Shown: in pieces, positions 7,366 through 28,422 of the stretch | How the letters are laid out: each line of letters opens with the position of its first letter | Position numbering within the stretch: position 1 is the first letter of the stretch | DNA from: a virus | DNA length: 43,179 bases | Direction: 5' to 3' (one strand) | IMG/VR virus record: IMGVR_UViG_3300047201_000038 | Span: 1-43,179 of that record | Position numbers and translations under genes: made by a program | The notes under the pieces: generated by a model | Told to the model about the DNA's origin: nothing | The model's input: only the letters and a program-made list of their open reading frames with translations | The model's database searches: none

Positions 7366-7703
7366 ACGCCTATCTCGCGTTCTATACCGAGTGGTGGGAA
7401 TCGGTCCTCAAGCCGGAGGATCACCGACACGAGATAGGCGAAACGACGGCGGAGTGTGTGAACTGCCGACTTGACGCGATGGCGGCAGGATTGAGTGCTT
7501 TCGAGGTCGGGATCTGGAACTGGTATTGCGAAGTCGTGAATCATTTTACGCTGGAGGTTGGGATCGTGGCGGACGAATTTCGGAGGATGGGGTTGCGGGG
7601 TCCGGCCCGGAAGATGGCGCTTGCGGCGCTGAACTCCATCCATCTCATGTTCCAGACTGTCGCGGCGGAGCGGAGAAATAAACGGGAGCAAGCTGATGGC
7701 TGA
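6961..7703 (+). CDS. Tail assembly chaperone, -1 frameshift product (gpGT-like)
   Basis: After a -1 slip at 7356-7362 reading continues without a stop to TGA at 7701-7703, adding 113 residues (LNAYLAFYTEWWES...). The fused protein has about 247 residues. The downstream part has no start of its own in good context; a GTG at 7458 is the first usable one and lies well inside the conserved-looking sequence. This is the classic G/GT arrangement of siphoviruses, in which T recruits the tail tube protein. The end overlaps the tape measure start by eight bases. Confidence 0.8.
7354..7440 (+). promoter_or_regulatory. Programmed -1 frameshift signal: slippery site plus branched RNA stem
   Basis: Slippery heptamer AAAAAAT at 7356-7362 lies in frame as A AAA AAT. 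Four bases downstream, CGCCTATCTCG (7367-7377) pairs perfectly with CGAGATAGGCG (7430-7440), an 11-bp stem. Inside are two smaller hairpins: ACCGA/TCGGT (7386-7390 with 7401-7405) and CCTC/GAGG (7406-7409 with 7416-7419). Together they form a three-way junction at the right distance to stall ribosomes. Confidence 0.85.
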
Positions 7704-10131
7704 TATTCAATACATCGTAACGATGGACGCTTCCGGGGCCTTGAAGTCTATCAAGGACCTTGACGGCGCCATCAACCAAGCGGCTGGGACGACGGCTAAA
7801 GCCGGAGGCTCAAGCGGGCCTTTCGGTAGCCTCTTCGCACAATTCACAGCCGGGACATTGGTAGCCTCTGCGCTCCAGAAGGGGATGGGTGCGCTCAAAG
7901 ACATCATTGCAAGTTCCATCACAAACGCCATAGAAGCAGAACAAGCCGAGAATAACTTGAAGGCGGCCCTGGAGATCACGGGCCGGACCGTCGAAGGGAA
8001 CATCCAGCACTATAAGAAATTTGCCGCCGAGCAGTTGAAGGTCACGACCTACACGGACGAACAGGTCATGGCCAGCCAGACGCTCCTCCTCCAACTCACG
8101 AGCTTGGACCAGAAGGGACTTGACCGGGCGACGAAGGGCGCGATGGGCCTGGCATCGACGATGGGGATAGACCTCCATTCTGCGACCATGATGGTCACGA
8201 AAGCGATGGAGGGGAACTATGGGGCGCTCGGTCGGGTCGGAATTAGAGTTTCCGAAAACTTGACGGGGGAGCAGAAGCAGACAGCGCTACTCGACCAGCT
8301 GGAAAAACTCTATCAGCGCTCGACGAAGGAGACAGAGACCTTCGGCGGAGCGATGAAACAGCTGGCCAATAACTGGGACGAGCTCAAGGAGGCTGGCGGG
8401 AAGGCCATCCTCGAAACCGAAGGGCTCGGCACGGCTATCGTGGCCCTCAATAAGGCTATGTCGAATTTTGTGGCGTCCGGTGCGTTCACGAGGTTTCTGG
8501 GCCAGCTTGAGAGATTCCCGGTCATCCGAAGCTTTTCGGACGCCTTAAAATTACTCACCCTTTCGCTCGAATTAGAATCCGCGAAAGCAGATCACGCCGC
8601 GAAGGTCAATGCCGGACTGGGAATCGCCATCGATACGGTGGGGAAGACCTTTGCGAAAGCGGCTCCGCTGACGAAGATTTTCGGCATTGACTTTGCCGCG
8701 CTCGTTGGAATGTTCACGGGCGCTCCCACGAAGATCAATGAAGTGGGGAATAAGGTCCGCGAATTAACGGCGGCGGAGATCAAGGCGGCGAAAGAAGCGG
8801 CGGACGCATATAAAAAGCTAGGGGACGCCGCCGCTGCTGTCGTGGCCAAATACAACCCGCTCCTCGGCGCGATGATGAAGCTCAAGGCGGAACAGGACAC
8901 CTTGACGAAGGCCTGGAAGGCCGGGGCCATGAGCGCCGATGCGTATGACAAGGCGATGGCCGCGAACGCCAAAGCCATGAAGGACGTCGGGCTTGAGGCA
9001 GGCAAATCGGCAAAGGCGCAGGGCGAGATTGTGAAGGCCGCTCAGGAAATCATCAATCGGTATAACCCGATGCACGCGGCGATGGTAAAAGCCATCGACG
9101 ACGAGAAGAAACTTGATGCGGCACTCAAGGCCGGGGTCATCACCGATAAGGCTTATGCGAAGGGGCTTGAGAGTATCCATAAAGACCTCGACATGGCCGC
9201 AAAAGCTGCGAAGGATGCAAAGGCGCCAACCGCCGCATTTGCCGCGTCTATCCAAGATGTCATCAATCATGTCAGGCCAATGAACGCAGCCATGCTCACG
9301 GCTATCGCCAGAGAGAAAGCGGCGACGACGGCATATAAAACCGGGAACATCACCCTCAAGGAATATATAAAACTCCTGAAGGAAATTACCAAAGACCTGA
9401 AAGCAAACGATTCCGAGACGGCCGCCTGGGTAACCGCTGCGCAGAAATGGGTAGATAAATGGGTATTGGGCTGGGCCGTCGGCATCTCCGCCATCGAAGC
9501 CGCCATGCGGCAGAGCGCGACGAACAAACTCGCCATATTGGACGAGGAATACCAAGCCCGTCTTGACCTTATAAATAACAGCGTGATGAACGAGGAGGAA
9601 AAAGAGGCGGCGATCACGGCCCTGGATGCTGAGTATAACATGAAGCGGCGGCAAGCCGAAGTCAAGGCTGCACAAGCGGCGAAGATTACCGCCATTGCGA
9701 TGGCCATCATCAATGTCGCGGAAGGCGTCACGAAAGCCCTTTCCGCACTCCCTCCGCCATTCAATATCGCATTGGCCGCGATTACTGCGGCGGCCGGGGC
9801 AATCCAGATCGCCCTCATCAAGTCCCAACCCATCGGGGCGGCGAAAGGCGCTATCTTCAAGCAGAAAGCCCTGCTGATGTCGCAGACCACCGGCCAGGAA
9901 TACGAGGTTGCCGAAGGCGGGGAGGCGGAGATCGTGAGTTCGCCGCGCCAGCTCCGCGAGGCAATCATGGGCAAGCGCGGAAAGGGCGTGGGGCCCGGCC
10001 AGCCGATCACCCTCCACAATCACATCTACATCGACGGAAAAGAGATGAAGACATTCATCACCAAGACGATCCGGGAACTGAGCAAGGCCGAACTCATGCA
10101 GATACATCCACGCGCGATAAGGGCATACTAA
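7696..10131 (+). CDS. Tape measure protein
   Basis: An 811-residue alanine/lysine-rich, mostly helical protein. The N-terminal MADIQYIVTMDASGALKSIK and the segment around residues 40-230 with 'MGLASTMGIDLHSATMMVTKAMEG' are typical tape measure features, and a hydrophobic segment near 660-705 (ITAIAMAIINVAEGV ... AAITAAAGAIQIALI) is the expected membrane-active region. Residues about 370-590 hold four diverged repeats with 'YNPLLGAMM', 'YNPMHAAMV' and 'VRPMNAAML' followed by 'KAG.....AY.K'. At roughly 1.5 angstroms per residue, a tail somewhat over 100 nm long is expected. A tip-binding glycine/histidine-rich end follows. Confidence 0.9.
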   Translation: MADIQYIVTMDASGALKSIKDLDGAINQAAGTTAKAGGSSGPFGSLFAQFTAGTLVASALQKGMGALKDIIASSITNAIEAEQAENNLKAALEITGRTVEGNIQHYKKFAAEQLKVTTYTDEQVMASQTLLLQLTSLDQKGLDRATKGAMGLASTMGIDLHSATMMVTKAMEGNYGALGRVGIRVSENLTGEQKQTALLDQLEKLYQRSTKETETFGGAMKQLANNWDELKEAGGKAILETEGLGTAIVALNKAMSNFVASGAFTRFLGQLERFPVIRSFSDALKLLTLSLELESAKADHAAKVNAGLGIAIDTVGKTFAKAAPLTKIFGIDFAALVGMFTGAPTKINEVGNKVRELTAAEIKAAKEAADAYKKLGDAAAAVVAKYNPLLGAMMKLKAEQDTLTKAWKAGAMSADAYDKAMAANAKAMKDVGLEAGKSAKAQGEIVKAAQEIINRYNPMHAAMVKAIDDEKKLDAALKAGVITDKAYAKGLESIHKDLDMAAKAAKDAKAPTAAFAASIQDVINHVRPMNAAMLTAIAREKAATTAYKTGNITLKEYIKLLKEITKDLKANDSETAAWVTAAQKWVDKWVLGWAVGISAIEAAMRQSATNKLAILDEEYQARLDLINNSVMNEEEKEAAITALDAEYNMKRRQAEVKAAQAAKITAIAMAIINVAEGVTKALSALPPPFNIALAAITAAAGAIQIALIKSQPIGAAKGAIFKQKALLMSQTTGQEYEVAEGGEAEIVSSPRQLREAIMGKRGKGVGPGQPITLHNHIYIDGKEMKTFITKTIRELSKAELMQIHPRAIRAY

Positions 10132-10894: not shown

Positions 10895-12637
10895 GTGACT
10901 CAATACGCTTATCCGACTTCAGATGTTTCTAATCCAGGAGTCTGGACCACAGAACCTCTCTGGTCGAAAGTTGATGAGGAGCCTTATAGTGATGCAGACT
11001 ATGTTCAGGCTCCGCAAAATGCGGTGAATCTTGCTTTCACGGTCGGGCTTGGGGCGCCAAGTGACCCGGGCGTGCACACAGGACACACGCTAAGAATTCG
11101 GGCGAAGTGCAACATCGCACGCGCATTTAAGTTTGAACTTCTCCAGACCTCGACCGTCATCCACGACTCGGGAAGTACAAATCTCACGACCTCATTCGCA
11201 GAGTATAGTTTTACGTTGAGCGAAGGTGAGGCCGCGAACATCACGAACTACGCGGCTCTCCGGGTTCGGGTCACGGCTATCGCCACGTATGCGGATGAAT
11301 ATGAGCAAGTTTCCTGGGTTCGACTCGAAGTCCCCGATGTTGTCGCCACTGATCTCGTCCCGGCAGAAGGTTATCAGGCGCAAGCCTCGGATTCTCCGGC
11401 CTTAACGCAAGAACACCACCTCACCCCCGCCGAAGGGGTGCAGGTCCAGGTCTCCGACTCGCCGGTCTTGAGTGTCGTTATCCGTGGGAAAATAAGCTTC
11501 GCAGATTTGCTACTGCTTCCCGAAGCCAAGCGGCTCGTCATCGGCGAGCACAAGCCGGCCATCGAGCTTGAGAGCCGGGAGTGGGGGGTGACGGGAGCGA
11601 CTCTCTGGACCAATACTGGCAGTACGTTTAATCGCGGCGACTTTACGGCGGCCAACGCCTTCTTCTGGTGTTCATTAGACCTATCTGCTTATGCGGGTAC
11701 GGATATCGGCTCAACACCTTATTCGATTCTCCTCACCGACGGGGCGGGCAAGACGGCAAGGGGGTACATCGGCGCGGTGGGCGCGGGGGAAACGCTAGGG
11801 GGTAATCCAATTATTAATGCCGATTTTGCTTCTGCTGAACCTGACGGGACCGCTTGGTCGAGACAGGCCGGATGGACAGTTGCGGGAGGCGTAGGAGTTG
11901 GTTCGGCAACAAATGGAGCCATATATCAATATATTGACACGGCTCAACAAGGTCTTTTTAAGTGTCAATATGATTTGGCTACCTTCGCAGGAGATGGTGT
12001 AAACTGGGGGTTTGATGCTACATATTTTGGATATAATTCAACCCCGGCCACATATGTTGCTTATAGAACCGCAATAGGGGGGGGGGGGAATTATGTGATC
12101 ACCGGAGCCAACTTTACTGGAACGGTCGATAATGCAAGTTTGAAGAAAGTAACCGACCCTCCCGCCACCGGCGTCCATATCGTCTCGGCATACGGGGGGA
12201 GTGTTAGGGCGTGGGCGAGCATAGATTCAGGGTTTAACCCGAATACGATTACGACGGCGGTCATATATGTAAGTGAAGAGAATGGTTCCTACTATACGCC
12301 CATGACTGACGGCGAGATCATCGAGGTCAGCGAAAACGGGGCCGCCTACGACGAGGTATTCACGGTCGCGGAGTGCGATGCCGCGGCGTCTACTTTTTTC
12401 ATGGACCTGGTGAACCGGCGTCTTTACCTTCACACCTTGAACGGGGATATCCCGAGCCACCAGACGGCCGGGGTTTATGACTTTTGCATCCTGGCTTATT
12501 TCCTCATCGGGTTCGCGGACCGCGTGGATGCGGACGGGCGGGACCCGGTTTTCGAGCCGGAGATCGAGATGCTTCTGGACGGAGGGTTTGAGGATTGGAC
12601 GAGCGAGACGGTCCCTGCACAGTGGACGGAGACTTAG
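10895..12637 (+). CDS. Tail tip / receptor-binding protein with shared N-terminal domain and AEG repeats
   Basis: A 580-residue protein starting at GTG 10895. Residues 1-150 (MTQYAYPTSDV...) form a domain that is repeated at the start of the next gene. Residues about 154-195 hold two copies of the 22-residue AEG-x-Q-x-Q-x-SD unit found 11 times in the protein at 2393. Residues 200-570 are beta-rich, with a lower-GC stretch at about 11810-12130 containing a run of nine G's near 12077, which could be a phase-variable or error-prone spot. The end, 'LLDGGFEDWTSETVPAQWTET', looks like the opening of a carbohydrate-binding jelly roll, so a downstream domain may have been lost. Confidence 0.65.
   Translation: MTQYAYPTSDVSNPGVWTTEPLWSKVDEEPYSDADYVQAPQNAVNLAFTVGLGAPSDPGVHTGHTLRIRAKCNIARAFKFELLQTSTVIHDSGSTNLTTSFAEYSFTLSEGEAANITNYAALRVRVTAIATYADEYEQVSWVRLEVPDVVATDLVPAEGYQAQASDSPALTQEHHLTPAEGVQVQVSDSPVLSVVIRGKISFADLLLLPEAKRLVIGEHKPAIELESREWGVTGATLWTNTGSTFNRGDFTAANAFFWCSLDLSAYAGTDIGSTPYSILLTDGAGKTARGYIGAVGAGETLGGNPIINADFASAEPDGTAWSRQAGWTVAGGVGVGSATNGAIYQYIDTAQQGLFKCQYDLATFAGDGVNWGFDATYFGYNSTPATYVAYRTAIGGGGNYVITGANFTGTVDNASLKKVTDPPATGVHIVSAYGGSVRAWASIDSGFNPNTITTAVIYVSEENGSYYTPMTDGEIIEVSENGAAYDEVFTVAECDAAASTFFMDLVNRRLYLHTLNGDIPSHQTAGVYDFCILAYFLIGFADRVDADGRDPVFEPEIEMLLDGGFEDWTSETVPAQWTET
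11354..11485 (+). repeat. Two copies of the 22-residue AEG repeat
   Basis: Residues beginning LVPAEGYQAQASDSPALTQ and LTPAEGVQVQVSDSPVL match the consensus of the 11-unit array at 3038-3772, including the E-G, Q and SD positions. The first resembles the seventh unit of that array closely, which suggests exchange of repeat modules between two tail or surface protein genes. Confidence 0.8.
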
Positions 12638-12640
12638 AGC

Positions 12641-15274
12641 ATGACTCAATACGCTTATCCTATTTCCGATATTGAAAACAGCGGTGGTTGGGCGACTTGG
12701 CCCACACCCGCACAACCGCTCTATCAACAGATAGATGAGGCCGTTCCTAGTGCGACCGATTGGATAGATGTTTATAGTGGGAATAAAACCTGCACGGTCA
12801 AGTTCGGAAGTCTAGATGATCCCGGTATTCACACCGGGCACATCCTACGATCACGCGTATATTTGGATTATCAAACCACATATGAATTACTTCAGGGGAC
12901 AACTATTATTCATTCTGAGATTCTAGTGGGAAGTATCGGTTGGACAACGGTATCGTTCACGCTCACCGAGGTCGAGGCTGCCCATATTACGGATTATACC
13001 GATCTTCGTGTCAGGCTCACGTCTACCTTCGGTTCTAATACATGTTGGCTTCAACTGGAAGTCCCCGAAGTAACTCCGCCTCCGGCGGAGGGGTCAATCA
13101 GCAGGATTATTCTCCCCGTTCATGGCGGAGCCTATGCGCTCAAAATGACGGTGAACGCAGCCGGGGATGATATCTCGGTTTCTCCGATAGCCAACATCAG
13201 GTTGCGACCGGGCTGCAAGGGGCGCGTGCGATTCTACGCCCAGAGCACCGTTGACTCGCCCGGGATAAGGGTTCACTGGCGGCTCTCGGATATCGGCGGC
13301 AACGTGTGGCTTAACTCCACGACCGGAGCATGGGGGGCCGTGCACGATAACGTCGTCGCGGGCGTCGGGAATGCGGGATGGACCGAGGCCTCTTGCGATT
13401 TCACGGCCAGTTCATCCTATTCGGTTTATAAATTGTCCATCGGTCGCGGGACGTCGGATTATGGCGCGACGTACAGCATCTACCTTGACGACGCTTCGGT
13501 CCTTCGGCTTCTGGAGCCGATGCCTTACCGGGCCATCATTCCACAGGGTGGCGCACCGTCGGTCCAGCAGTCGGTCGGGGATTTTTACGTCGGGGACGTG
13601 GCACTCTCCGCGGGCGAACTTAAATACGGGAACGACGGTGGGTGGTATACGGCGCTCGACGCTTACATCTGGCACCTCAAGGAATTCTGGTTGAAGATCG
13701 GGTCCATCGATTCGACCTACGCCGAGCTCGGGACGATATTTTGGGGCCGGACGACACGGCCATCAGTCACAGATGAGGCCGTCACGTTCCAACTCACCGA
13801 TGCGCGGGACGGGCTTTTCGGGTCGATCCCGACGGCCATTTATGACCTGACGACCTATCCGGACATGGACCCGAACGCTGTCGGCATGGCTATTCCCATC
13901 CTCTTCGGGGAATTGGATAACTTGACGCCGGTCTGCATCGATACCGTGCTCTTCAAATACAAGATCATGGGCTACGAGGCGATGGAGGCCATCCCCGCGG
14001 TCTATAAGGCCGGGATCACGCTCACCCTGACGACGGACTACACCGTCAATTTGGCCCTCGGAGAATTCACGTTGGTCGCTGATCCGGGAGATTCCGTTAT
14101 CACCTGCAAGGCGAAGGGCGCGAAATGCAGTATTGAGGGTGGGACCTATAGTGCCCTCGGCGCGGACATTCTTTTCCACGTGCTCACGGTGCTGAACTCG
14201 TCGCCCGTCCCGAAGTCGATGATTAACCTGCGCTCCTTTCTAGACCTTCGGACGTTCCGGACCCAGGCGCTGGCCGCCTATTTGACCGAGCAAACCGCCG
14301 TCACCGACTTTATTCGGATGCTTCAGAACTCGAACGTTTTCCACTTGATCCCACTTTTAAACGGAACCTTCGGCGCATTCCGCTATGCCGTCGGGGTGAC
14401 GGGCGCAGAGACCCGGATCAATCAGCTCGACATGGCCTCGTTTACCTTGAGTTATGACACGGCCCCTGTTCGGAAAACCGTCGTCGTGAAATACGGGCAG
14501 GACCCGGGGACGGGGAACTGGTTGGCGATCTCCGCGACGGACCCGAATATCGGCTTGCGATACGATCAGGCGGAAATCCTTGAAATAGAAACGCTCCTGA
14601 CTTCCGCCTCGGACGCGGCGATTCTTGCTGCGTTTTTTCTCAGACTCATACGAAGCCCGGAGAAGCGCGTTGCCGGGAGCGTCCCAGCCCTGCTCTTGGG
14701 TCATCGGCCTGCGGAGAAAATTGTCATCTCGAAAGTGATTCGGGACGGCGAGGGCGTCAACCAGACCGTCCTGGCTGCCGAGGTTTACCGAGCGCTGACG
14801 CTTGTCAAAAACGCCGGTCCGGCGACCGTTGATGTGGAGGCGGTGCTCGACATCCAAACTACCGGGGCCATCCACTCCGACGTCACTCACGTCGATACGC
14901 ATACGGATACAGGAACGAGCATTCCGCACACGGATGTCGCGCATGACGATTCGGGGCATGCAGACAGCCATGCGAATGTCGCGTACGTGGACACGCACGG
15001 CAACGTCAGCTATCACGATCATGCTCATGTGGACACGCACGTGGACCACTATGCGGATCACGACGATACACCCGGACACGGGGACGCCCACACCGACACC
15101 CACGGGGACTCCCACACGGACGTTCCCCACACGGACACGCACTCCGACACGGCACACTCAGACACCCACAGCGACGGGGCTCACGCGGACGTCGCGCACG
15201 GGGACATCGCTTACGAGGATGTCGCTCACGAGGACATGCACGGGGACGTCCTGCACGGGGACTCGGAGTATTGA
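12641..15274 (+). CDS. Tail tip protein with C-terminal His-x-Asp repeat tail (candidate modification substrate)
   Basis: An 877-residue protein. Residues 1-150 repeat the N-terminal domain of the preceding protein (MTQYAYP-SD...). Residues 150-290 look like a jelly-roll (APLTVD-like) domain and residues 290-740 like a tail hub or baseplate protein, with 'DARDGLFGSIPTAIYDLTTYPDMDP' and 'MAIPILFGEL'. From H745 to the end, 133 residues are almost only His-x-Asp units spaced four or five apart (HTDVP, HTDT, HSDTA, HSDT...). Such a tail could bind metals, as HxH motifs do in phage T4 long tail fibre tips, or be the target of the radical SAM enzyme encoded four bases downstream. Both ideas are inference. 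Confidence 0.75.
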   Translation: MTQYAYPISDIENSGGWATWPTPAQPLYQQIDEAVPSATDWIDVYSGNKTCTVKFGSLDDPGIHTGHILRSRVYLDYQTTYELLQGTTIIHSEILVGSIGWTTVSFTLTEVEAAHITDYTDLRVRLTSTFGSNTCWLQLEVPEVTPPPAEGSISRIILPVHGGAYALKMTVNAAGDDISVSPIANIRLRPGCKGRVRFYAQSTVDSPGIRVHWRLSDIGGNVWLNSTTGAWGAVHDNVVAGVGNAGWTEASCDFTASSSYSVYKLSIGRGTSDYGATYSIYLDDASVLRLLEPMPYRAIIPQGGAPSVQQSVGDFYVGDVALSAGELKYGNDGGWYTALDAYIWHLKEFWLKIGSIDSTYAELGTIFWGRTTRPSVTDEAVTFQLTDARDGLFGSIPTAIYDLTTYPDMDPNAVGMAIPILFGELDNLTPVCIDTVLFKYKIMGYEAMEAIPAVYKAGITLTLTTDYTVNLALGEFTLVADPGDSVITCKAKGAKCSIEGGTYSALGADILFHVLTVLNSSPVPKSMINLRSFLDLRTFRTQALAAYLTEQTAVTDFIRMLQNSNVFHLIPLLNGTFGAFRYAVGVTGAETRINQLDMASFTLSYDTAPVRKTVVVKYGQDPGTGNWLAISATDPNIGLRYDQAEILEIETLLTSASDAAILAAFFLRLIRSPEKRVAGSVPALLLGHRPAEKIVISKVIRDGEGVNQTVLAAEVYRALTLVKNAGPATVDVEAVLDIQTTGAIHSDVTHVDTHTDTGTSIPHTDVAHDDSGHADSHANVAYVDTHGNVSYHDHAHVDTHVDHYADHDDTPGHGDAHTDTHGDSHTDVPHTDTHSDTAHSDTHSDGAHADVAHGDIAYEDVAHEDMHGDVLHGDSEY
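14873..15271 (+). repeat. His-x-Asp coding repeat array
   Basis: About 400 bp encode some 28 units. Over twenty are H-x-D; a few positions carry Y for H or N for D. Unit lengths alternate between four and five residues, giving a nine-residue super-period in the second half (HTDVPHTDT, HSDTAHSDT). Codons are mixed (cac/cat, gac/gat), so this is not a simple DNA slippage tract. Confidence 0.9.
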
Positions 15275-15277
15275 CCG

Positions 15278-16492
15278 ATGGGTCTTCACGTTAAAATAAT
15301 GGATTGTCAAGGCGGCTGTCGGTCCTGCTATGAACGGCGAATTCGAAAGACCCAAGGCAGGGCGGATTACAACCTTGAGGCGATGCTGGCAACGCTTCGG
15401 CGTGAGGCCGACCACGAGAAACCGGAGGACCGGAAGAAGCGTTCGGCCCCATGCGTCCACGGCGGGGAGCCGCTGATTATTCGGTCCGCCGATTTACGAA
15501 AAATTCTGCAGCTTTCGTTCGACCTTTACGGACGGACGGGTATCCAGACGAACGGGATTCTCTTAACGGATGCGCATCTTGAGATGTTCCGGGAGTTCAA
15601 GACATCGGTCGGAGTCTCTATCGATGGCGACACGGCCGCGCTCAATCGGGGCCGGTGGAATGACGGCGATATTCCAGACAGCCGCATCCAGGAATTAACG
15701 GACCTGACACTCAGAAACATGGCGCGGGCGAAGGCGGCGGGCCTTGATGTTTCGGCCATCATTGTGCTGAGGCGATACAACGCGGCACCAGAACGGCTTT
15801 CCGCACTGATGCGGTTTCTTATCCGGCTTGAGAAAATGGGCATCCGATCTCTTCGCACAAATGAGGTTATCGTATTCGAGGACGAGTTCCGCGACGAGGA
15901 ATTGACCCGCGACGAACTGGGCCGGGCGTTCATCCGGCTTGCGGACTTGTGTTTTGAGGACGCGGGGCGACAATGGAACCCCTATCGGGACATCGTGAAG
16001 ATGTGGACGGAGGGCGGTGACGCGACTTGCGTTTTCAATGCCTGCGATATCTGGAAGACGGGCGCGGAGACGGCCATAACCGCTGACGGGTCAATCGGCG
16101 TTTGCCTCAAGGGCGGCGCGGCGCTGGACGGGATTCAGGCCCTGGCCGCCGATGTGGGCGGCGCGGAAAGAGTCCAGGCACTTCCGGCCATTCCCCAGGA
16201 GCAGGGCGGTTGTCAAGGTTGTGAGTTCTGGGGCCTCTGTGGAGGCGGTTGTCCCGGCTCGGGAATCGGCAACGATTGGCGGAACCGGACCCGGTTCTGT
16301 GGAGCCTATAAAACGCTCTTCCAGCACGTCAGGGCCCGGCTCAAGGGCCTCATGCCGGGGATAGCGCTCAAAGACCCAGCGGAGCGGGCCAAGCGATGGG
16401 CCTCCACGCTGGCCGGCGGCGCGTCAGGACATGGAGACAGCCACGGCGACGAACATGGGGACAAACCTCACGGGGATCACCAAAACGGCTAA
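15278..16492 (+). CDS. Radical SAM/SPASM protein, probable virion-protein maturase
   Basis: A 404-residue protein. C10-x3-C14-x2-C17 is the canonical radical SAM [4Fe-4S] motif; H61-GGEP65, T91-NG and S114-IDG are hallmark motifs of the anaerobic sulfatase-maturase/peptide-maturase group. The C-terminal third has cysteines near residues 251, 256 and 277, then C312-x2-C315-x5-C321-x3-C325 and one near 342, a SPASM-type auxiliary cluster pattern. Residues 385-404 form a short His-x-Asp tail. Proteins of this class modify peptides (crosslinks, epimerisation, thioether bonds). The adjoining His-x-Asp tail protein is the obvious substrate. The iron-sulfur motif is very close to the N terminus; no in-frame upstream start exists before the preceding gene. 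Confidence 0.9.
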   Translation: MGLHVKIMDCQGGCRSCYERRIRKTQGRADYNLEAMLATLRREADHEKPEDRKKRSAPCVHGGEPLIIRSADLRKILQLSFDLYGRTGIQTNGILLTDAHLEMFREFKTSVGVSIDGDTAALNRGRWNDGDIPDSRIQELTDLTLRNMARAKAAGLDVSAIIVLRRYNAAPERLSALMRFLIRLEKMGIRSLRTNEVIVFEDEFRDEELTRDELGRAFIRLADLCFEDAGRQWNPYRDIVKMWTEGGDATCVFNACDIWKTGAETAITADGSIGVCLKGGAALDGIQALAADVGGAERVQALPAIPQEQGGCQGCEFWGLCGGGCPGSGIGNDWRNRTRFCGAYKTLFQHVRARLKGLMPGIALKDPAERAKRWASTLAGGASGHGDSHGDEHGDKPHGDHQNG

Positions 16493-16493
16493 C

Positions 16494-17375
16494 ATGAAAC
16501 TCATTCCGGGTCTGGACCTCCCACCTTCGTGTAGAACGACATGGGTTAGCGAGGAGGCGCGAAAGGTCTGGGCTCCCGTTCTACCCAAAGTCTCGGCGAT
16601 GGTTTCGGAGCTTGAGGTTTCGAGCGTTGCCCGCGGGCATCGCCCCTGCGCGTGGCAGACGATTGCCGAAGATGAGTTTCCGCGCTTGGCGGCGGCATGG
16701 GCGGAGATGGACCTTATCAGCCTGCCGATCCTGCGTGTCCGGTCCTTCACGGGATTCGCTCACCGGCACGAAACGCCCCAGCCGGGCGAGCGGGCCTCCA
16801 TCTGCGTCATCGTCGCCCGGACGCTCAAGGACGCACTCCGGTTCAAGGCGGCCAATGCGAGCGGGGACAACGACGCGCAGGGCGAGCTCCTCGGGTTCCC
16901 GAAATGCTGCCGGACGTTTTTCAGCGGCGTCTGGGCAAAGGGATATTATGACCCGATTTGGCAGGCGGCCATGAATACCAAGCATGAGGTCGTCGGAGAG
17001 CGACACGTCCGGGTCCAGGGCCACCCCTTCGCGAATCCCATTCTCCGATATGCCGGGATCCGGGTCGGGTTCCATCTTCCTTGCGCCTTCGATTGCCGTG
17101 AGACGGTCGCGGTCGCGGCTGAACGGATGGAGTTGGCCAAAGCGACGGACCCGAACCTGGCTAACATCCTCCAGGGACTTCTTTCAATGCCGATGTCCTG
17201 GGACGTTTATAATGGCGTGGCAGTAGTTCGAACACCAATGTTTTATTTGATTGTACCTTCCGTCCCAGCAGAGGAGCGGCACGTCGTCGAGATCGTGAGC
17301 AAGCCGGAATTCATTCCGCGAGAGAGCGCGAGGGGGACTGGGTTCCCATTCCTTACGGACAGGAGGGCGGAGTGA
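16494..17375 (+). CDS. Cysteine-motif protein partnered with the radical SAM enzyme
   Basis: A 293-residue protein. The ATG at 16494, one base after the radical SAM stop, is preferred; an in-frame ATG at 16431 lies inside that gene. The motif GFPKCC (C138-C139) followed by FF, and H194-x2-C197-x3-C201 in 'FHLPCAFDC', resemble the paired cysteine motifs of DUF483-type proteins, which suggests a bound metal or cluster. No SAM motif is present. It could be a second modifying enzyme, a substrate carrier or a chaperone for the His-x-Asp tail. The link to the radical SAM enzyme rests on gene order and the cysteine motifs. Confidence 0.7.
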   Translation: MKLIPGLDLPPSCRTTWVSEEARKVWAPVLPKVSAMVSELEVSSVARGHRPCAWQTIAEDEFPRLAAAWAEMDLISLPILRVRSFTGFAHRHETPQPGERASICVIVARTLKDALRFKAANASGDNDAQGELLGFPKCCRTFFSGVWAKGYYDPIWQAAMNTKHEVVGERHVRVQGHPFANPILRYAGIRVGFHLPCAFDCRETVAVAAERMELAKATDPNLANILQGLLSMPMSWDVYNGVAVVRTPMFYLIVPSVPAEERHVVEIVSKPEFIPRESARGTGFPFLTDRRAE

Positions 17376-17573: not shown

Positions 17574-18770
17574 ATGTTCCAGAATGATAAGGTTGGAATA
17601 GGTTGGGGCCGTTTCGTGCCGATGTCTCCGGTGAACTTCGGCTCGTTCGATGGGACAAGCTTCAAACTGGACGAGGCGACGCTGGACAAAGAATTCCACG
17701 CCATCTCAAATGCTGGTGCAAATTTCGTCCGCATCTTTCCGGCAGACGTCTGGGCTAATTATAAGGCCAAGAAAGAAGTCTTCCAACCCTACGTCCTCGA
17801 TACTTCACGGGACAAGTGGGACTTGAGCGCATTCAACCATTACTACTTCCCCATCATGCGGAAAGTATTCGAGTTGGCGAATGGCGTCAATATGTCCGTG
17901 ATGTGGGAATTGTTCGAGAATTGCCAGTTTCATGGAACCTACAAGAAGTGGTCTCCCTGGGTCTCGAACGTACAGGGCGTCTTGCGGCCCGAGGAAAAAG
18001 CCGCCGATAAATACACGAAGTCGTGGATTGAAAAGTGTCTCGCGGAATTCAAAAACTTCGATGTGGTTTGGTCGCTCGGCAACGAGATGGTCTATTCCGG
18101 ATTCCCCGATTTTGTAGCGCGGGTCATCTGTCCCTTCATTAAGGCCAAGAGATTCGACTTCAAGCGGCTGGTCGTGGGGGCGGACTTCAGTCTTGCCAAT
18201 ACATATCAGAGCGACGTCCTGGATGCTTTTATCAATGCGCGCTTGCCGGGATATATGGCCGCCATTCGTCCCATTCACACTTGCGGGGGGCCGTGCGACC
18301 CACCGGATGCTCAACAGCCCTATGGTCCTACCCTGACTGCGGCGCTGGATGTCTTCAAGCCAGCTTGCGTAGCTCTTGTATCGGACGATGCTGTTTACAA
18401 TGGCGACAGCAAATGCGATGTGGATGATCGGAAACGCTATCGGCCATCAGCCGCAACGTGGGGCAAGATGGTGACATACACGCTCGGTCGGCATCCGAAC
18501 AGCCACTTCGAGCATATCCCGCACGGAAGGAACCTTGACTGTCATGTCGAGACATTCAGGTCAATAAGTGGGGCATATAGGTCAAAATTTGGGGCATACC
18601 CGAAAAATTGGGGTAAATATCCGTACACGCCACCGACACCTGGACCCGGACCTACTCCTGGACCCGGCCCTGAACCAACGCCAGGACAAGACTGTAAGTG
18701 CAGTTATTGGCTTCCGAATATATTGAAATGGCTCGCCTGCCTATTCGGCGGCAAGAAGCGGTGCAAATAA
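17574..18770 (+). CDS. Glycoside hydrolase of clan GH-A type with cationic cysteine-rich tail
   Basis: A 398-residue protein. Residues 1-330 have the TIM-barrel order of cellulase-like clan GH-A enzymes: 'NFVRIFPADVW' on an early strand, 'VMWELFENCQF', then 'VWSLGNEM', where E171 is the expected acid/base. The second catalytic Glu expected at the end of strand 7 is not clear: 'ALVSDDAVY' carries Asp there. Residues 340-370 are a Pro-Gly linker (PGPGPTPGPGPEPTPG), then a hydrophobic, cationic tail with four Cys (CKCSYWLPNILKWLACLFGG). It may degrade a host surface polysaccharide or peptidoglycan; the tail may contact membranes. Last gene of the late operon. Confidence 0.75.
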   Translation: MFQNDKVGIGWGRFVPMSPVNFGSFDGTSFKLDEATLDKEFHAISNAGANFVRIFPADVWANYKAKKEVFQPYVLDTSRDKWDLSAFNHYYFPIMRKVFELANGVNMSVMWELFENCQFHGTYKKWSPWVSNVQGVLRPEEKAADKYTKSWIEKCLAEFKNFDVVWSLGNEMVYSGFPDFVARVICPFIKAKRFDFKRLVVGADFSLANTYQSDVLDAFINARLPGYMAAIRPIHTCGGPCDPPDAQQPYGPTLTAALDVFKPACVALVSDDAVYNGDSKCDVDDRKRYRPSAATWGKMVTYTLGRHPNSHFEHIPHGRNLDCHVETFRSISGAYRSKFGAYPKNWGKYPYTPPTPGPGPTPGPGPEPTPGQDCKCSYWLPNILKWLACLFGGKKRCK

Positions 18771-26348: not shown

Positions 26349-26654
26349 ATGAGAATTCATTACTATGACAAAAAGGGAAGGGCCATCGGCCCCGATGAAT
26401 GCGGAGACCTATTCAAGAGTAAAACCTACGCGAGAATCAAGCAAGATATTTTGCCGAACGGGAAATGGGTCTCGACGATCTGGCTCGGGCTGAATCACCA
26501 ATTTGGAAGCGGCCCCCCGCTCATTTTTGAGACGATGGTTTTTCCAAAGTGCGGGGAATGGAGCGAGTTGGATTGTGATCGGTATTCCACATTGAAGGAA
26601 GCCCGAGCAGGGCATGAGGCAATGGTTAAGAAGTGGACAAGCAAGGAGGATTGA
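26349..26654 (+). CDS. Conserved phage protein, unknown function
   Basis: 101 residues. 'TYARIKQDILPNGKWVSTIWLGLNHQFGSGPPLIFETMVFP' resembles a family of phage early proteins seen in many genomes, with a C-terminal helix ending 'ARAGHEAMVKKW'. No enzyme motif. It sits in the run of small coupled genes; its ATG follows the previous stop by one base. Confidence 0.7.
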   Translation: MRIHYYDKKGRAIGPDECGDLFKSKTYARIKQDILPNGKWVSTIWLGLNHQFGSGPPLIFETMVFPKCGEWSELDCDRYSTLKEARAGHEAMVKKWTSKED

Positions 26655-26655
26655 C

Positions 26656-27141
26656 ATGAAATCTACGAAAGACATCCTGACCAATTTAGGCGCGTGTACC
26701 AAGGCCGTGAAGTGGGCGGGAAGCAAGACGCATAAGCAGGCATGGAACACCTGCAAGCGCGGCGATTGGCTGTTGTGGATTACAAGCAAGCTCGGCGTTG
26801 ACCGGAAGCGGATCGTTCTAGCCGCGTGCGCCTGCGCCGCATGGGCCGCATGGGCCGCAGGGGACGCCGCATGGGCCGCCGCATGGGCCGCATGGGCCGC
26901 AGGGGACGCCGCATGGGCCGCATGGGCCGCAGGGGACGCCGCAGGGGCCGCATGGGCCGCAGGGGACGCCGCAGGGGCCGCCGCAAGGGCCGCAGGGGAC
27001 GCCGCATGGGCCGCAGATGCCGCCGCAGATGCCGCCGCACGGGCCGCTGCCCACAAAAGGATGGCGGGTATCATACGCAAGATCATCCCGTTCAGCGTCA
27101 TCTGCAAGGCCATCGCCCAGTATGAGGGAAGGGATAAATAA
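26656..27141 (+). CDS. Ala/Trp-rich phage protein of the 'putative immunity protein' type
   Basis: 161 residues from ATG 26656. N-terminal '[48 protein letters not shown]' and C-terminal '[18 protein letters not shown]' match the conserved ends of a family often named putative immunity protein. Between them lie about 75 residues of A-A-x units ([15 protein letters not shown]...), probably long helices. The name comes from sequence families; the actual role in phages is not established. Confidence 0.7.
26821..27050. repeat. GC-rich low-complexity coding repeat
   Basis: About 230 bases built from GCCGCATGGGCC, GCCGCAGGGGAC and close variants, giving the A-A-W / A-A-G-D pattern. Unlike other repeats here it is near-identical at DNA level, so it can expand or contract by slippage. 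Several other frames stay open through it only because the sequence is periodic. Confidence 0.85.
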
Positions 27142-28159: not shown

Positions 28160-28422
28160 GCGAGACATATAACACAGATGAGTTGGAAGAGAAACTAAAG
28201 GGTGCGTGGAGGTTTCGCCTAGCTCCCGACGTGATCTCCACCATCATCGCCCGGCTCCGGGCGGGGGACAAGCTGTTGGGTATAGCAAAGAGAGCGAGGT
28301 TTATTATTTCCGTATATTGCAAGGAACATATCGACGAATACGACAAGGCCATATATTGCAAGGAACATATCGACGAATACGACAAGGCCATCGCCAAGTA
28401 CGAGGGGAAGGAGGGGAAATGA
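28156..28422 (+). CDS. Small early protein, paralogue family member 3 with internal duplication
   Basis: 88 residues. Carries the 101-bp block shared with member 2 and then a perfect in-frame 39-bp tandem duplication, so that YCKEHIDEYDKAI occurs twice in a row. This lengthens the C-terminal helix by 13 residues. Starts inside the upstream stop. Confidence 0.7.
   Translation: MSETYNTDELEEKLKGAWRFRLAPDVISTIIARLRAGDKLLGIAKRARFIISVYCKEHIDEYDKAIYCKEHIDEYDKAIAKYEGKEGK
28252..28352 (+). repeat. 101-bp perfect direct repeat, copy 2, followed by 39-bp tandem duplication
   Basis: Identical to 27488-27588. Directly after it a 39-bp unit (ATTGCAAGGAACATATCGAC and following bases) is repeated in tandem, over about 28313-28390. 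Confidence 0.95.

Follow-up and report, generated by a model that had tools for sequence, protein, structure and literature searches.

A candidate radical SAM/SPASM maturation system for His-x-Asp arrays in phage tail proteins

Introduction

What does a radical SAM enzyme do for a phage when its gene directly follows that of a tail protein? The question is raised by IMG/VR virus record IMGVR_UViG_3300047201_000038, of which positions 1 to 43,179 (the entire stretch analyzed, 43,179 nucleotides, hereafter the window) include three adjoining genes. These encode a protein of the tail region that ends in an array of His-x-Asp (HxD) units, a radical SAM/SPASM enzyme, and a DUF483-like protein (coordinates in Table 1). 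The original prediction for this locus, made from the DNA letters, was that the phage matures its tail tip by modifying the repeat residues or by loading metal onto them, with bacterial His-Xaa-Ser (Hxs) systems as a parallel.

Most known cases of radical SAM cross-linking involve small bioactive peptides. In the present system, a structural component of the virion is the likely substrate, and a single chain can contain as many as 101 HxD units (Thermus phage phiLo). In the open-access literature (subscription papers were not covered) we found no paper that linked HxD repeats, phage tails, and radical SAM enzymes or that proposed a virion substrate. As set out below, the array is very probably the substrate of the adjacent enzyme, and the motifs and homologies suggest that the product is probably a series of cyclophane cross-links from His to the β carbon of Asp.

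The tail protein ends in a dense HxD array

As originally predicted, the last 133 residues of the tail protein are rich in HxD, with 22 units beginning at base 14873. When this region (27 His and 28 Asp) was shuffled 20,000 times, 5.7 ± 1.9 units were obtained, with a maximum of 13. Most of its other Asp and Asn residues have an aromatic residue or His two positions before them, in the additional motifs listed in Table 1. Recent expansion of a DNA repeat was rejected as the origin of the array, because Tandem Repeats Finder detected only short, imperfect repeats (15179-15262), the codons are mixed, and relatives that are ~69% identical over the compared region carry quite different arrays in which the motif is kept.

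Residues ~290-740 of the protein form a conserved domain (phrog_8917), and the array makes up its C terminus. With this structural domain, and with its gene in the tail module directly behind the tape-measure and tail genes, it is a candidate virion protein. A Pfam search of the tail domain gave no informative match, and a PDB sequence search with the tail alignment gave no match. Two related array proteins (L257 and L261) have tail-fiber or collagen-like PHROG matches, and collagen-like tail-fiber sequence precedes their arrays. A C-terminal location is the rule, with 95 of 115 arrays ending no more than 10 residues from the end of the open reading frame (ORF); a GSxW-type repeat-like motif precedes the array in 68 of 104 loci.

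Arrays and enzyme genes occur together

Family members were collected using tblastn and then by profile scans of IMG/VR and GTDB contigs, which gave ~100 more, and were clustered to non-redundant loci; viral loci were counted for neighboring genes only if they had at least 2.5 kb of flank. Three cultured Thermus phages (Cumys, phiMa, and phiLo) had adjoining genes for the enzyme and the DUF483 protein in tblastn searches. Immediately before the enzyme gene, Cumys and phiMa, which are grown on T. thermophilus HB8, encode a small protein with 54 HxD units in Cumys (gene 13), where it is annotated directly after the baseplate and tail-fiber genes, and 53 in phiMa. In phiLo, there are three proteins with 55, 101, and 72 units, located 4-8 kb away on the opposite strand. 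Overall, an HxD array was present near the enzyme in 52 of 53 non-redundant viral loci, compared with none at 35 loci encoding other SPASM enzymes (Fisher p = 9e-24). A DUF483-like gene was near the enzyme in all 53 viral loci, compared with one match in the 35 others.

In the reverse direction, viral contigs were searched for four HxD units with two DNA patterns that took no account of the enzyme. A fixed filter for protein-like arrays retained 51 loci. Three of these were out-of-frame low-complexity DNA, leaving 48, and the enzyme was found in the same record for 43 of these (40 in the fetched stretch and three elsewhere in the record). It was also present in the record of L063, whose array the filter had missed. 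L040, L104, L124, L130, and many other pattern matches proved on translation to be out-of-frame low-complexity sequence and were discarded. The co-occurrence on which the original prediction depended is thus beyond chance in both directions, and the converse that it had envisaged, HxD proteins mostly without the enzyme, is not what these records hold.

Among genome-derived members of the family (L150, L154, L156, L158), arrays are carried by other large proteins or occur as short HxD-rich peptides, so that the proposed chemistry would not be confined to phages.

Two loci had unusual arrangements. In L059 (10391-13315), a single array with both HxD and FVN motifs is followed by two consecutive radical SAM genes of the family, and in L165 (7059-9272) an array protein and enzyme of the same kind occur on a contig binned as a Diapherotrites archaeon.

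The array motif is aromatic-x-[Asp/Asn]

Motif statistics were obtained from 128 non-redundant arrays comprising 13,352 residues and 2379 HxD units. Asp was present at +2 of 95% of array His residues. Asp residues lying outside HxD units (n = 297) had Tyr, Phe, or Trp at -2 in 161 cases (54%), compared with 6-9% at every other offset tested; without the ten richest arrays, the values were still 48% and 6% (p = 4e-76). Asn was accepted like Asp, with His or Tyr/Phe/Trp at -2 in 153 of 342 cases, whereas Glu and Ser showed no enrichment for aromatic residues or His at that position, and only four cases of Ser at +2 of a His outside HxD were seen. Although Pro accounts for 6.7% of residues other than His and Asp, it occupied the x position in just one of the 2379 units; it followed Asp directly in four cases and was common just before His. 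The true motif of the arrays is therefore aromatic-x-[Asp/Asn]. Two bacterial members of the family, L160 (2-1180) and L166 (4832-7972), have HxK arrays (PHVKVPHVKHVK...) beside them, an apparent natural variant of the third position.

These data bear on the metal-loading part of the original prediction, i.e., that the array binds iron or zinc via its His and Asp residues, with the enzyme and DUF483 protein loading or assembling the metal. His and Asp are classical ligands, and HxH motifs have been discussed as potential iron sites in tail fibers, in the part of that work available to us (PMC11705849). Those fibers resemble the present proteins in having His-containing motifs in phage tail proteins, but they have no associated enzyme and their motif is HxH rather than aromatic-x-Asp. 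In our arrays HxH is nearly absent (15 among 2517 His residues), Phe and Trp, which provide no side-chain metal ligands in proteins, replace His in register, and metal binding would not need a radical SAM/SPASM enzyme. Mutation alone poorly explains these replacements, because Phe and Trp codons are at least two base changes from those of His. We consider metal binding an improbable explanation and disfavor it as the main role of the array; the other part of the prediction, that the repeat is the substrate of the neighboring enzyme, is supported by the co-occurrence.

The enzyme resembles both cyclophane-forming enzymes and sulfatase maturases

The enzyme has a radical SAM core (33.4 bits against PF04055; cut-off 29.5) and the features noted in the original prediction: the CX3CX2C motif (C10/C14/C17), GGEP, TNG (within QTNG), and the SPASM cysteines. 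The latter are seven in number, arranged as C256-X14-G271-X4-C276, C312-X2-C315-X5-C321-X3-C325, and C341 (pattern CX9-15GX4C...CX2CX5CX3C...C). The cluster and SPASM cysteines were invariant in an alignment with 21 relatives, and the SPASM model TIGR04085 scored slightly below its cut-off (23 of 27 bits).

NCBIfam hidden Markov models (HMMs) for YhhB, DynA, FxsB, and AmcB matched all 21 family members. None of the curated models (YhhB, DynA, FxsB, AmcB, XyeB, and GrrM) reached its cut-off, the best score being 66 bits compared with 445-450. By sequence comparison, the enzyme belongs to a family that is separate from the curated cyclophane models, with significant similarity to them. The Hxs parallel holds as an analogy, in that a radical SAM enzyme lies beside a His-x-residue repeat protein. 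However, the enzymes differ, the third residue is not Ser, and the partner is a DUF483 protein; membership of the Hxs group was rejected because HxsB scored only 14.7 bits against a cut-off of 370, HxsC had no match in the window, and there are no His-Xaa-Ser repeats.

According to the accessible sections of a review (PMC11002830), characterized triceptide enzymes join residues i and i+2 via the β carbon, linking Trp to Asn/Asp/Arg, Phe to Asn/Ser, Tyr to Asp/Arg, and the C2 of His to Ala/Arg; in dynobactin there is a C-N link from His N-tau to the β carbon of a Tyr two residues away. The phage system is like these (XncB, OscB, YxdB, HaaB, and YhhB, and DynA/DynE of dynobactin) in combining a SPASM enzyme with an aromatic-x-X3 motif, where X3 includes Asp, Asn, Ser, and Arg, and His is already a known aromatic partner (PMC11002830). 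The arrays carry this motif, as would be expected if they are substrates. The system differs in that its presumptive substrate is not a short leader-core peptide but a large virion protein carrying as many as ~100 motifs, and in always having a DUF483 partner. Repetition of a motif many times in one chain, served by one radical SAM enzyme, has a precedent in TvgA/TvgB, although there the motif is TVGG, the product is cyclopropylglycine, and the substrate is a cellular peptide (PMC9062424).

Because of the motif grammar, the i/i+2 chemistry of triceptides, and the matches to YhhB, DynA, FxsB, and AmcB, we take cyclophane formation to be the likeliest reaction. An unlikely alternative is that the enzyme modifies Asp/Asn of the array by another radical reaction at the β carbon (oxidation, epimerization, or desaturation), as in anaerobic sulfatase maturases (anSMEs), the aromatic residue serving for recognition only. 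HMMs for anSMEs likewise match each of the 21 members, and among solved structures the best relatives are also anSMEs. Nevertheless, acceptance of Asn but not Glu, the occurrence of any aromatic residue exactly at -2, and the avoidance of Pro at x fit an i/i+2 linkage better.

Absent from the original prediction was a tail of HGD units that the enzyme itself carries at its C terminus, from 16430 (Table 1). Of 66 viral members of the family, 57 have an enzyme with at least two HxD units. The HGD tail probably serves for docking or is modified by the enzyme that bears it. It might be argued from these enzyme-borne units that the array is a docking or assembly tag, mimicked by the HGD tail, and that the enzyme modifies some other component of the virion. 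This seems quite improbable, since enzymes without such tails (L007, L015, and L236) still adjoin arrays, and the genome-linked L154 and L156 adjoin short HxD-rich peptides with little else.

A DUF483-like protein accompanies the enzyme

The third protein, with its GFPKCC and HLPCAFDC motifs, was expected from the original prediction to begin one base past the enzyme stop codon. This start, 16494, is most likely correct, rather than the longer mechanical start at 16431, because the extra N-terminal residues from the latter have very low model confidence. The window protein scored 13.2 bits against PF04467 (gathering cut-off 25), and 27 of its 42 homologs matched that family at E ≤ 0.01, the best at 9e-8. 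Its fold is modeled with confidence, but in a structure comparison no convincing solved relative was found and no function follows from it; the best match, of residues 50-169, was to 2guk (Z 8.7, 103 residues, 3.1 Å), a protein of unknown function. Many viral DUF483 proteins extend into a methyltransferase domain, which that of the window does not have. At nine genome-collection loci, a single ORF encodes the enzyme fused to the DUF483 domain, strongly supporting joint action.

In the portion of their paper available to us, Kolesnik et al. (2024) reported that Cumys and phiMa contain an "rSAM module" made up of radical SAM, DUF483, and unknown genes, with further copies in prophages, and proposed that it functions in DNA modification, with no mention of HxD or histidine (PMC11437467). 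This is the same trio, the unknown gene being that of the HxD-array protein if the enzyme-adjacent gene was meant. If the enzyme and DUF483 protein did modify DNA, the HxD protein would be unrelated to them. Cyanobacterial homologs do lie near deazapurine genes (PMC11437467), but an HxD array adjoins the cyanobacterial locus L146 as well. The array adjoins the enzyme in 52 of the 53 viral loci, and the enzyme has HxD units of its own. SPASM enzymes as a class, moreover, act mainly on peptides and proteins. We regard DNA modification as highly improbable.

Proposed maturation of the tail tip

We propose that the phage uses this module to mature one of its virion proteins, a protein of the tail. 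The enzyme would bind the C-terminal aromatic-x-[Asp/Asn] array and abstract hydrogen from the β carbon of Asp or Asn, which would then be joined to the ring of the His (or Tyr, Phe, or Trp) at -2. Each motif would become a strained three-residue cyclophane, with up to about 100 cross-links per protein, and a floppy His/Asp-rich tail would be converted into a stiff, stitched rod, resistant to proteases and heat, at the tail tip or fiber end. The DUF483 protein would be an obligate partner that delivers the substrate or performs a second modification; many of its relatives have an additional methyltransferase domain. From this scheme we infer that stiffening or stabilization of the tail tip may be the biological role.

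Several points weigh against this proposal. Scores of the family against anaerobic sulfatase maturases and against cyclophane enzymes are about equal, which is why we keep some weight on other β-carbon radical chemistry, and they lie far under all equivalog cut-offs. The accessible sections of the review cited above (PMC11002830) give no example of a His-Asp cyclophane. Five array records, although they may be fragments, have no enzyme: in L108 and L369 the array continues past the end of the available sequence, and L310, L337, and L359 are closely similar array genes, the same gene being found in L365, where the enzyme is present in the record. A convincing array missed by the filter, L127, is in an 18.9-kb record without enzyme, possibly also a fragment. 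Of 25 non-redundant genome-derived members, 12 had no array by the criterion used, although some have short or HxK tails. Finally, the structure model of the tail domain was unusable (mean pLDDT, the predicted local distance difference test score, 46), and the tail position therefore rests on gene order and PHROG matches.

Taking all this together, we put at about even the chances of the full proposal, i.e., that tailed phages of many lineages encode a radical SAM enzyme that stitches tens to around a hundred His-Asp cyclophanes into tail-tip or fiber proteins, producing a covalently stapled rod and, possibly, the first case of radical SAM maturation in a structural protein of a virus. If it is correct, the polymer that phages make in this way is of a new type, reinforced by covalent bonds, which would be relevant to how stable the tail is, how it contacts the receptor, and how the phage enters its host. 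The enzyme would then be a stapling tool that tolerates repeats. A quantitative prediction follows from the motif grammar, a loss of 2 Da per motif, which could be checked on the cultured Thermus phages.

Genomic context of the module

The window has the character of a temperate siphophage-like genome, with genes for a portal, HK97-type capsid, large terminase, tape measure, and tyrosine integrase; no tRNAs were found in it.

Table 1. Positions of the module and of related tail genes in the window
Feature	Position	Strand	Remarks
Tape-measure protein	7696..10131	+	Marks the tail-tip end of the morphogenesis region as the site of the module
Upstream paralogous tail protein, no HxD	10895..12637	+	Shares N-terminal ~150 amino acids (aa) with ORF 12641
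Tail-tip/fiber-like structural protein, 877 aa	12641..15274	+	Lies behind tape measure and two further tail-region genes
HxD array, proposed substrate region: 22 HxD plus HAN, HGN, YVD, YAD, YED	14873..15262	+	
Radical SAM/SPASM enzyme, 404 aa	15278..16492	+	Pfam PF04055, E = 6.5e-8, above cut-off
C-terminal HGD tail of the enzyme, 4 HGD units, HGDSHGDEHGDKPHGD	16430..16489	+	
DUF483-like partner, GFPKCC and HLPCAFDC motifs	16494..17375	+	Model mean pLDDT 91

The N-terminal domains common to ORFs 10895 and 12641 are 42% identical (E 5e-27). In 70%-identical relatives (L093, L273, and L225), the parts corresponding to the two ORFs form a single ORF of about 1400 aa, and the arrangement at 10895-15274 is thus a duplication or a split. 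The gene directly 3' of the module (17574-18770), which is possibly part of the tail module, has a weak match to apiosidase-like glycoside hydrolases, a Pro/Gly linker, and a Cys-containing C terminus. Elsewhere in the window, a 9/21/42-bp tandem repeat (26835-27047) within ORF 26614-27141 encodes an Ala/Trp-rich stretch, and a 39-bp sequence is tandemly duplicated in two perfect copies at 28313-28391.

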